A stretch of 48,679 bases of DNA, taken from the NCBI GenBank assembly GCA_023265175.1, contig JAHFUI010000011.1, forward strand, positions 1-48,679. Direction: 5' to 3'. Position 1 is the first letter of the stretch. Each line of letters opens with the position of its first letter. This document shows, piece after piece, positions 16,701 to 45,325 of this stretch. The position numbers and the translations under genes were made by a program. Under the pieces are notes generated by a model. That model was not told where the DNA came from. It did not search any database and saw nothing but the letters and a program-made list of their open reading frames with translations. Source of the DNA: Acidobacteriota bacterium (GTDB lineage: Bacteria > Acidobacteriota > Vicinamibacteria > Vicinamibacterales > CAVVIG01).

Positions 16701-16709
16701 CGATGATGA

Positions 16710-16762: not shown

Positions 16763-18319
16763 GTGTCTGCTGACTTCGTCCTGCCTGAACTTGGCGAAAA
16801 CATCGAGACGGGCGACGTGCTGCGCGTGCTCGTCAAGGCGGGCGATACGCTCGTGAAAGATCAGGCCGTGCTCGAGCTCGAGACCGACAAGGCGACGATC
16901 GAAGTGCCCTCGTCGGTGGCCGGCCGGGTGACCGACATCAAGGTCAAAGCCGGCGACAAGGTGAAAGTCGGTCAGGCGATCCTCGCCGTGGAGGAAGCCG
17001 GTCACGCGCAGGAGAAGGCCGCTCCTGCGAAGCCCGCTCAGAGCCAACCACCGTCGGCAAAGGCCGAGCCCAAAGCGAGCCAGGCAGTCGCCGCCGACAG
17101 CGCTGCGAAAGTCCCCGGCGATGGCGGACTCGAGCAGCCTGCTGAAGGCGGGAAGCGCCAGGCGGCTGCTGACAAGCCCGGAGTGCCGGGGGTACCTGGG
17201 GAAAACGAAAAGCGTGTCGAGGCCCGCGCGGGTGCAGAGGACACAGAGCAGGGCGATGTGACGAGCGCTGCCGCGCGTGGACAAAAAGTCGTCGACATCA
17301 GTCGCGGCGCGCGCCAGACCGCTGAATCGCCAGCCGAGTCCGAGCTGCCGCCGGCACCGGCGACGCCGTCGGTCCGCCGCATGGCCCGCGAGCTTGGCGT
17401 CGACATCAACGACGTCGCCGGAAGCGGACCGAGCGGCCGTATTTCAACCGACGATGTGAAGGCGCACGTCAACCGGATCGTGAGCGGGTCGCCAACGCCG
17501 AGCGTGCCGGCGGCGGAGCCGCTTCCTGACTTCAGCCGCTGGGGCGAGATCGAGCGTCAGCCGATGCGCGGCGTCCGCCGGAAGACCGCTGAGCATCTGG
17601 TCGCGGCATGGAGGGCCATTCCCCACGTCACGCAGCACGACGTGGCCGACGTCACCGCGCTCGAAGAGGCGCGCAAGCGCTACGCGAAGCAGGCGGAAGC
17701 CGCCGGCGGCAACCTGACCGTCACGGCGATCGCCGTGAAAGTGGTCGCGGCGGCGCTGAAGGTCTTCCCGCAGTTCAACGTCTCGGTCGATATGGCCGCG
17801 CAGGAAATCATCCAGAGGAAATACATCCACATCGGCGTGGCGGTGGACACCGATCGCGGCCTGCTCGTGCCGGTCATCCGCGACGCCGATACGAAGAACA
17901 TCACGCAGATCGCCGTTGAGCTGTCGCAGCTCTCCGAGAAGGCCCGCAATCGCAAGCTGTCGCTCGAACAGATGCAGGGCGGCTGTTTCAGTATCTCGAA
18001 TCTCGGCGGCATCGGCGGCACCTCGTTCACGCCGATCGTCAACGCCCCGGAAGTCGCGATCCTCGGCATCTCCCGGGCGCGCATGGAGCCAGTCTATCAG
18101 CGCCTGCAGCCGGCGCCGAGCGCGGAGGCGCGAGGCGCCAGCGAGCGGGGGTGGGGCCCCGCGAGCATTGAAGGAGATGCGCAGCTGGTTCCCCGCCTGA
18201 TGCTGCCGCTCTCGCTGTCCTACGACCACCGCGTCGTCGACGGCGCCGACGGGATCCGGTTTCTCCGCTGGATCATCGAAGCGCTCGAGCAGCCGTTTCT
18301 GTTGGCGCTCCAGGGATGA
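16763..18319 (+). CDS. aceF: Dihydrolipoamide acetyltransferase (PDH E2)
   Basis: The 518-residue E2 transfers acetyl from E1-lipoate to CoA. One lipoyl domain (residues ~3-78, lipoylated K43 in ELETDKATIEVPS) is followed by a long Ala/Pro/Glu-rich linker to ~195. The E1/E3-binding domain (SVRRMARELGVDINDVAGSG) spans about 200-238, and the catalytic domain ~265-518 ends with SYDHRVVDGADG (active His near 488). Residues ~451-468 (APSAEARGASERGW region) are an insert encoded by a repeat element just before the last catalytic strands. GTG 16763 is the start, preceded by GAAAGG. Confidence 0.94.
   Translation: MSADFVLPELGENIETGDVLRVLVKAGDTLVKDQAVLELETDKATIEVPSSVAGRVTDIKVKAGDKVKVGQAILAVEEAGHAQEKAAPAKPAQSQPPSAKAEPKASQAVAADSAAKVPGDGGLEQPAEGGKRQAAADKPGVPGVPGENEKRVEARAGAEDTEQGDVTSAAARGQKVVDISRGARQTAESPAESELPPAPATPSVRRMARELGVDINDVAGSGPSGRISTDDVKAHVNRIVSGSPTPSVPAAEPLPDFSRWGEIERQPMRGVRRKTAEHLVAAWRAIPHVTQHDVADVTALEEARKRYAKQAEAAGGNLTVTAIAVKVVAAALKVFPQFNVSVDMAAQEIIQRKYIHIGVAVDTDRGLLVPVIRDADTKNITQIAVELSQLSEKARNRKLSLEQMQGGCFSISNLGGIGGTSFTPIVNAPEVAILGISRARMEPVYQRLQPAPSAEARGASERGWGPASIEGDAQLVPRLMLPLSLSYDHRVVDGADGIRFLRWIIEALEQPFLLALQG
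18113..18165. repeat. REP-like element inserted in frame in aceF
   Basis: About 50 bases beginning GCGCCGAGCGCG and ending GGGGTGGGGCCCCGCGAG closely match an intergenic copy at 39802-39853. The GC core can fold (GCGGGG / CCCCGC around GTGGGG). It adds about 18 residues to the E2 catalytic domain between VYQ and LVPRLMLPLSLSYDH, a position where E2 proteins normally have only a short loop. Confidence 0.75.
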
Positions 18320-20687: not shown

Positions 20688-20751
20688 TACGAAAGCACGA
20701 AGATACGAAGAAGATCTAGTTTGTCTTCTTCGTGTTTTCGTGTCTTCGTGG
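20688..20751. repeat. CACGAA 8-bp family hairpin
   Basis: The left arm carries TACGAAAG, CACGAAGA, TACGAAGA units (period eight). After a short loop (CTAGTTTG) the right arm reads TCTTCTTCGTGTTTTCGTG, the approximate reverse complement. It lies between the hydrolase stop and the aldehyde dehydrogenase start. The same family appears at 36354-36412 and 42485-42514. Confidence 0.8.
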
Positions 20752-20769
20752 CCAAGGTGCTGAAACGCG

Positions 20770-36332: not shown

Positions 36333-36353
36333 GAAACGACCGATTAGCCCCGG

Positions 36354-36412
36354 CCACGAAAACACGAAAGCACGAAGAAGACTTTGGTCTTCGTGTCTTC
36401 GTGTTTTCGTGG
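36354..36412. repeat. CACGAA 8-bp family hairpin
   Basis: The left arm (36354-36382) reads CCACGAAAACACGAAAGCAC then GAAGAAGAC. The right arm (36387-36412) is nearly its reverse complement, GTCTTCGTGTCTTCGTG then TTTTCGTGG, with a loop of four bases. It sits between the thioesterase and the giant protease-barrel gene and overlaps one possible thioesterase start. Confidence 0.85.
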
Positions 36413-36429
36413 TTGCATTGTGATCGCCC

Positions 36430-39615: not shown

Positions 39616-39801
39616 AAGCAATACCTCGGATGAGCGGGATCGGGTGGAAACCGCTGCGATCTTATCGTGACGCCCGGGTGCCTGCAAACGCTGATCCTAT
39701 GCCGTCGCGGCTCACGCCGCTCGGCATTGCTACAGGCGATTATCCGCTTGGACAGCATCGGAACGCCGCTCAAGGTGGGCTGTCGCGTCGAGGCAGCGCA
39801 A

Positions 39802-39853
39802 GCGCCGAGCGCGTAGCGCGAGGCCAGGCGACGGGGGTGGGGCCCCGTCGCGA
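39802..39853. repeat. REP-like element, match to the aceF insert
   Basis: GCGCCGAGCGCG, GCGCGAGGC and GCGACGGGGGTGGGGCCCCG closely match the segment inserted in aceF at 18113-18165. The core GCGACGGGG pairs perfectly with CCCCGTCGC around GTGGGG. Confidence 0.75.
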
Positions 39854-39972
39854 GTAAGAAATGTCCTCTGGCTGCCGCGACCTCGACCCTTTTCGGCGAC
39901 ATCCGCCTTCGCGCGACCTGATCGAGCGCGCTCCGGCCGGACAAGACCTCGGTATAGACTCGTACCGGCTTG

Positions 39973-42431: not shown

Positions 42432-42514
42432 CCCTTCGACAGGCTCAGAATCGTCAGCGAAGCGAGAAGCTGATTTCCCTGCGACCACGAAAACACGTTT
42501 TCGTGTCTTCGTGG
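42432..42514. repeat. Composite of REP palindrome and CACGAA hairpin
   Basis: CCCTTCGACAGGCTCAGAA at 42432-42450 is the widespread REP-like palindrome core. A short CACGAA hairpin follows at 42485-42514, with arms CCACGAAAACACG and CGTGTCTTCGTGG. Two families lie side by side after the small gene, before the EEP gene end. Confidence 0.7.
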
Positions 42515-42522
42515 CCTTGTCG

Positions 42523-43245
42523 TTATCCGATGCGCACGTCGGCCACGAGCGGCAGATGATCCGACGCGACCAGCGCGAGGCGCGTGCGCAGCAGCGACAC
42601 GTCGAGAATCTCCACACGCCCGGCGTAGTAGATGTGATCGAGATGGAGGATCGGGAAGACGCCCGGATAGGTTCGCCGCCGGACCAGATACTGTCGTAAG
42701 TCCACGCTATTGAGCTTCTCGCTGAGCAGCTTCGTCGTCAGCCCACGCATCCATTCATTGAAATCGCCGAGGACGAGTTTCGGTCCGCTCACGCGGTGAT
42801 CCGCGACGATGGCCGCCAGGCGCCGGGCCTGATGCCGGCGCTCGAGAAACGCCGTCCCGAGGTGCACGTTGTACAGATGCATGGTGCAGCCGTCGACCGA
42901 GACGTCGACGCGTTGAAGCCGGCGAGGCTCGCACCTCTTCCACGTGAGATCCTGCTCGGAATGCTGCACGATCGGGAATCGGCTCAGGACGACGTTGCCG
43001 AACTGATGGCCGCGGAGCTGTCGCGTCGGCGCCATGACCCATCCCATCCCGAGCGCCGCGCCGAGGCTTTCGGCGTGGCCGCCGGAGATCGCGCCCGGCC
43101 CGATGACTTCCTGCAGCGCCACGACGTCGGCACCGACCGCGCGGAGGACGTCCGCGATGCGATCGGGACGCGTTCGCCCGTCGAGTCCGCGGCAGCGATG
43201 GATGTTGTACGTGACGATCCGCAGCTGACGGGTGTTCGAGGTCAC
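42523..43245 (-). CDS. Endonuclease/exonuclease/phosphatase-family hydrolase
   Basis: The 240-residue EEP protein reads RIVTYNIHRCRGLDGRTRPD, VGADVVALQEVIG (metal Glu), HLYNVHLGTAF, LVLGDFNEWMRG (GDFN), and LHLDHIYYAG with final SDHLPLVADV (SDH). These are the full set of motifs for a Mg2+-dependent phosphodiesterase or phosphatase acting on lipid, sugar or nucleic acid phosphates. GTG 43245 is the start; the divergent small zinc-ribbon gene starts 80 bp away. Confidence 0.9.
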   Translation of the reverse strand: MTSNTRQLRIVTYNIHRCRGLDGRTRPDRIADVLRAVGADVVALQEVIGPGAISGGHAESLGAALGMGWVMAPTRQLRGHQFGNVVLSRFPIVQHSEQDLTWKRCEPRRLQRVDVSVDGCTMHLYNVHLGTAFLERRHQARRLAAIVADHRVSGPKLVLGDFNEWMRGLTTKLLSEKLNSVDLRQYLVRRRTYPGVFPILHLDHIYYAGRVEILDVSLLRTRLALVASDHLPLVADVRIG

Positions 43246-45191: not shown

Positions 45192-45200
45192 AGGTATAGT

Positions 45201-45319
45201 CTACAGTCGCCAGTCGCCAGTCGCCAGTCGCCAGTCGGCAGTCGCCAGTCGGGAGTCGCCAGTCGAGCGGGCTCCCATCGGCTTGACGACGGACTGGCGA
45301 CTGGTGACTGGAGATTGAG
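45201..45319. repeat. CAGTCGC 7-bp array with inverted copy
   Basis: CAGTCGC units (with CAGTCGG and GAGTCGC variants) repeat with period seven from 45204 to about 45265. After a linker an inverted tail reads GACTGGCGACTGGTGACTG then GAGATTGAGGACTG. The tail ends directly before the DUF72 ATG and may supply its ribosome binding site (GAGG). Confidence 0.85.
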
Positions 45320-45325
45320 GACTGC

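Follow-up and report, generated by a model that had tools for sequence, protein, structure and literature searches.

A palindromic element inserted in frame in the pyruvate dehydrogenase E2 gene of an acidobacterium belongs to a repeat superfamily mostly restricted to a single Vicinamibacterales family

The E2 gene and its insert

The window analysed in this study (the whole stretch of DNA, 48,679 nt) is contig 197 of a genome of 4.92 Mb assembled in 308 contigs (96.8% complete). On its forward strand it carries, at positions 16763–18319, a gene for the dihydrolipoyl acetyltransferase (E2) of pyruvate dehydrogenase, which starts with a GTG codon at 16763 (an ATG at 16703 is an alternative) and has intact lipoyl, E3-binding and catalytic domains. 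Genes were called with a home-made caller based on coding potential, and proteins other than those tested against Pfam or PDB were named from a reading of their sequences. An earlier note on this DNA had placed an in-frame repeat of about 18 residues at 18113–18165, upstream of the active-site motif SYDHRVVDG. The position relative to the motif is correct, and the catalytic motif is unbroken; the extent has to be revised, as the actual unit is a complete class-5 palindromic element at 18098–18175 (forward strand), which is 78 nt or 26 codons long and has the translation QRLQPAPSAEARGASERGWGPASIEG.

The element, all parts of which are given on the forward strand, begins with a 5' box (GCGCCTGCAGCC, consensus GCGCCYGCRGCC, 18100–18111) that is found in copies of both class 1 and class 5 from different genera. 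The box is followed by hairpin 1 (GGCGCC-GA-GCGC-GGAG-GCGC-GA-GGCGCC, 18112–18139, obtained by folding), with a tandem G.A internal loop, and by hairpin 2, which contains the core of the superfamily (GCGAGCGGGG-GTGGGG-CCCCGCGAGC; hairpin at 18141–18166, exact core at 18147–18160). The E2 copy folds as these two hairpins, with a G.A internal loop in each. As a single sequence it has energies only modestly better than those of shuffles (z-scores of -1.8 and -1.5), which is not exceptional, and the structural case therefore rests on covariation. In hairpin 1, compensating changes are found in the outer stem of copies L288 (CATGCC/GGCATG) and L309 (GCTGCC/GGCAGC).

From its 5' box GCGCCTGC(G/A)GCC to its tail GCGAGCATTGAAGGA, the insert corresponds to one whole class-5 unit as known from other genera. 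Its ends coincide with those of the genome-wide matches (query positions 9/10 to 86) and also with the limits of the additional residues when the orthologous proteins are aligned. Since the length of the host loop is variable, these limits may be off by a few codons. At the junctions neither a terminal inverted repeat nor a target-site duplication is evident, and the host loop is too divergent for an exact empty site to be defined.

The similarity to an intergenic copy at 39802, on which the earlier note had relied, is real (88% identity over 39802–39847, E-value 1.3e-7 in its own genome). This second family copy lies between divergent genes at 39793–39860 (forward strand), where 39802–39847 is the matched part and the outer limits were set by eye. 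The stem of its hairpin 2 differs from that of the E2 copy in a compensated manner (GCGACGGGG/CCCCGTCGC), and it has the A-rich tail AGTAAGAAATG.

Copies, classes and distribution of the superfamily

A search of the source genome with positions 18090–18190 gave 29 matches, the best of them other than the query having an E-value of 9e-13. In the 4.92 Mb there are 51 exact copies of the core GGGGGTGGGGCCCC, and 69 if up to one mismatch is allowed, while the reversed control has 1 match. It could be argued that the resemblance is due to chance or to local GC-rich slippage, with no inserted repeat at all, since the genome is GC-rich and the E2 relatives have short variable loops at this place. These copy numbers (51 cores against 0–1 in controls) refute that reading, as does the agreement of unit and insert from end to end, and we give it practically no weight.

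Copies were collected from draft metagenome-assembled genomes. The classes of the family have differing 5' modules and share a 3' hairpin of the form nGGGG-GTGGGG-CCCCn. Among 299 unique copies, covariation is observed in the stem adjoining GGGG/CCCC at position 1 (C-G in 206, T-A in 67), position 2 (G-C in 226, C-G in 49) and position 5 (C-G in 155, G-C in 93), and at positions 3–4 Watson-Crick pairs alternate with tandem A.G/G.A pairs.

When a genome collection was scanned with GCGGGGGTGGGGCCCCGCG, all 80 listed loci were from Acidobacteria, several of them labelled gp6 or Vicinamibacterales. The number of exact cores per genome ranges from 0 to 323 in the main Vicinamibacterales family, and within a single genus (g18) 323 stand against 20. 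One further family (f12) has 46–67 cores, and the rest of the order and phylum has at most 7, mostly 0. Most of the superfamily is restricted to a single family of Vicinamibacterales (Acidobacteriota), and its copy number is patchy among related genera and species. The plasmid records gave no match to the element, and Rfam gave no family at the gathering threshold, the only match being a miRNA at chance level (E-value 0.78). A viral scan with the 14-nt core returned widely scattered single matches, which were left out as evidence.

Filled and empty sites among E2 orthologues

Out of 29 E2 orthologues from the same order, 28 lack the element; in these, a short variable loop joins EPV(Y/W/F/H) to (V/E)PRLMLP, each of the two motifs being present in this or a similar form. 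Compared with the EPVY-loop-VPRLMLP of the orthologues, the E2 of the window has 26 codons more, which is exactly one element. Catalytic-domain identity to the E2 of the window is about 80% for the closest orthologues that have no long insert, and nothing equivalent to the 26 residues is present in the E2 of E. coli. An AlphaFold2 model puts the segment in a beta-hairpin, between its strands 185–192 and 218–233, with the low pLDDT expected if the predicted loop is flexible.

The remaining orthologue, from another genus (genome G013, locus L103), carries at the equivalent site an insert of 20-odd residues in which the palindrome is decayed and which has strongly diverged. Its DNA gives a better match (score 50) to the E2 element of the window than to any of the 298 further copies in the collection. 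This score was reached by only 3 of 5000 shuffles when compared with the E2 element alone, and by 10 of 100 when the maximum over all copies was taken, so that a relation between the two inserts, as judged from their sequences, is likely rather than certain. The earlier note would have been refuted by orthologues with the same protein insert and no DNA similarity to the repeat; such a case was not met, as the G013 insert, the only one of comparable length, does match the element. The shorter E2 loops of genomes G011 and G016 (L108 and L109) show no significant relation to it. The presence of a relative at this site means that the event is old or that the site was struck twice; the most economical reading is that both genera inherited a single old insertion, and a second hit is not excluded.

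Coding copies in other enzymes, and nesting

The E2 gene is not the only coding sequence with an element in frame. The source genome has such copies in TopA, MeaB, MtaB, ABC-F, DnaE2 and xanthine dehydrogenase, genome G017 in UvrC, CobA and a sulfatase, and other genomes in MetH, MetRS and an RluB-like pseudouridine synthase, amongst others. In alignments with solved structures the extra segment is visible as a gap for MeaB, UvrC and CobA, while the element in TopA lies within a region of variable length. With the empty orthologues, the genome-wide family and these equivalent copies in other enzymes, the proposal that a dispersed palindromic element had entered the E2 gene in frame is well supported.

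The E2 insert could also have been kept because the additional loop improves or alters the enzyme or its complex. The reading frame has been maintained and a decayed relative occupies the same place in another genus, which would agree with such a benefit. However, the peptide simply reads the element in whichever frame it landed, and all three sense frames are used in the other host genes; the G013 version has moreover diverged strongly and the loop is of low confidence in the model. A beneficial loop is accordingly a very improbable explanation.

Nesting is observed directly. Thirteen of the 18 class-6 units lie within the loop of another hairpin, the halves of which are found on both sides. 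The ABC-F genes of the source genome (G000) and of G013, which are 74% identical, share a class-2 element located in their C-terminal linker, and only in G013 is this element interrupted by a further one of class 5 (about 24 codons). This pair of a filled and an empty site shows an insertion that took place after the split of the two genera.

Two side observations concern coding copies. The linker of the ABC-F ATPase carries elements of different classes in three genomes (L067, L151 and L235), and is as such a recurrent landing site. At L060 (contig 80 of the source genome, about 17.6–18.4 kb), a called helicase ORF has at its C-terminal end an array of 84-bp (28-codon) elements arranged head to tail and, separately and farther upstream, an in-frame array made of DLDSLPESAARESLRSSARTSEALPARG repeats.

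Position and orientation relative to genes

Although about 87% of the stretches read is coding, the majority of copies are intergenic. In gaps between genes of the same direction, 170 copies are in the sense orientation of the genes and 16 in antisense (binomial p = 1e-33), and inside called genes the counts are 38 and 7, respectively (p = 3e-6). These statistics come from the stretches read and not from whole genomes, they depend on the home-made gene caller, and the copies of a genome, being related by descent, are not fully independent of each other. The bias is not explained by stop codons, because the units inside genes have on average more open frames in antisense (2.53 out of 3) than in sense (1.97). 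As reading frames do not account for it, its source is inferred to lie either in the insertion step, coupled to the transcript or to a strand, or in selection acting on RNA after transcription.

Where a copy separates two genes of the same direction, its end lies in about half of the cases roughly 10–20 nt ahead of the following start codon, and copies near start codons usually have an A-rich tail (AGTnAAnAATG). Recognisable Shine-Dalgarno motifs are few in either group (19% and 25%), and whether the element displaces them could not be resolved. The closeness to start codons and the A-rich tails, together with the strong sense bias that stop codons leave unexplained and a conserved, covarying hairpin, are what one would expect if the elements were primarily cis-acting RNA leaders controlling translation or mRNA stability, the copies in genes being by-products. 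On the other hand, the downstream genes are many and unrelated, copies are also found within genes and in 3' regions, copy number is patchy (0–323) in close relatives, units are nested and no Rfam family matches them. The short intergenic gaps of these dense genomes could by themselves bring copies close to start codons. We consider a primary role as leaders improbable.

Another reading goes further and takes the elements as a new class of mobile element that spreads, templated by RNA or coupled to transcription, into the coding strand of genes that are transcribed, and that targets hairpin loops and sites close to start codons. If true, it would explain why copies inside genes are mostly in sense even though antisense is open in more frames. 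We regard it as unlikely, but not as negligible.

Separately, one class (for example L018, L062 and L087) starts near the upstream stop codon (TGAGCGGACAGTCG...) and ends near the next start codon, and thus occupies the entire gap between two genes.

Mode of spread and comparison with known systems

The reading we favour, with a probability of roughly 0.8, sees in the E2 insert a copy of a mobile palindromic element that is non-autonomous and specific to a lineage of Vicinamibacterales. In this reading the insert would be translated and tolerated, and selection would shape which copies survive. The element consists of a 5' module of one of several classes and of the common GC-rich 3' hairpin with its G-rich loop, and would be copied by a trans-acting machinery that has not been identified and is inferred only. 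A copy has entered the E2 gene in sense and in frame, where a beta-hairpin of the catalytic domain makes a variable turn, and there it is presumably translated as a flexible loop of 26 residues and tolerated by the enzyme as a nearly neutral addition; neither translation nor activity with the insert has been shown. Selection would remove copies that break frames or folds, so that survivors are found mostly in same-direction gaps, often near starts, or in frame in permissive loops. For the sense bias itself, insertion coupled to the transcript or to a single-stranded DNA strand may be inferred, or else selection at the RNA level.

For the family we identified neither a transposase nor terminal inverted repeats nor target-site duplications. 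Reverse transcriptase (PF00078) and IS110 (PF01548) were considered as mobilisers and rejected, since neither tracks copy number. The earlier note had called the repeat REP-like, and a REP sequence mobilised by a RAYT (TnpA-REP) tyrosine transposase would likewise be short, palindromic, of high copy number and mostly intergenic. The label nevertheless fails. Y1_Tnp (PF01797) has 0 matches in the source genome (51 copies), in G001 (131) and in G011 (32), yet it is present in genomes without any copies and has no relation to copy number. No GTAG/GGAG foot of the palindrome was seen by eye in the listed copies (no formal motif search was made), and unlike REP/REPIN sequences the present units are longer and composite, occur in frame in coding sequences and are biased to the sense of genes. 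A RAYT origin is hardly tenable.

Most known cases of palindromic elements that code for protein segments come from Rickettsia and Wolbachia, the genomes of which are reduced. For Rickettsia, many palindromic insertions in frame in conserved genes have been reported, and a guanylate kinase so modified was shown to be active (PMC2229807, PMC10969869). The in-frame entry of a palindromic element, which the earlier note regarded as unusual, is indeed so, but it is not without precedent. Like the palindromic elements of Rickettsia (RPEs) and Wolbachia, which are short, form several families and occur both between genes and in frame in conserved genes, where they are apparently tolerated (PMC2229807, PMC10969869), the present ones are dispersed multi-copy palindromes found in frame in E2, MeaB, UvrC and CobA and absent from orthologues. 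The RPEs are about 105–150 bp long and belong to an alphaproteobacterial genus, whereas those described here measure 70–100 nt, are GC-rich, belong to Acidobacteriota, where they are rare or absent in the rest of the phylum, share one 3' hairpin with a G-rich loop, and are nested in places and strongly biased to the sense of genes; the Rickettsia/Wolbachia host range is not met by any of the 80 loci listed above. They work like RPEs, but form a separate, GC-rich and lineage-bound superfamily (no direct sequence comparison with RPEs was made).

The ERIC, YPAL and Correia MITEs are stem-loops that lie between cistrons and are transcribed, open frames being fused to genes in some of them, and the effect of ERIC depends on its orientation (PMC2229807). 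The present elements resemble them in these arrangements and differ in phylum and sequence; most of these MITEs also have terminal inverted repeats and TA ends, none of which was found here. No earlier description of the repeat in Acidobacteria was found in the literature available to us (open-licence PMC papers only).

That free-living acidobacteria of the soil also have such elements, in hundreds of copies and several structured classes, nested and with a strong sense bias, shows that the in-frame habit recurs. The copies constitute a large natural data set on protein sites that tolerate inserts of 20–50 residues, and in annotation such inserts should be recognised, lest they pass for novel domains. 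As for the unexplained sense bias, it makes the mode of spread, at the DNA or at the RNA level, directly testable.

The window contains further repeats. A second dispersed repeat, built of 8-nt units (CACGAAGA / TCTTCGTG), is found at 20723–20753, 36352–36422 and 42497–42524, two of its copies being inverted and 94% complementary. At 45198–45324, between two genes, tandem heptads AGTCGCC stand opposite an inverted partner block.
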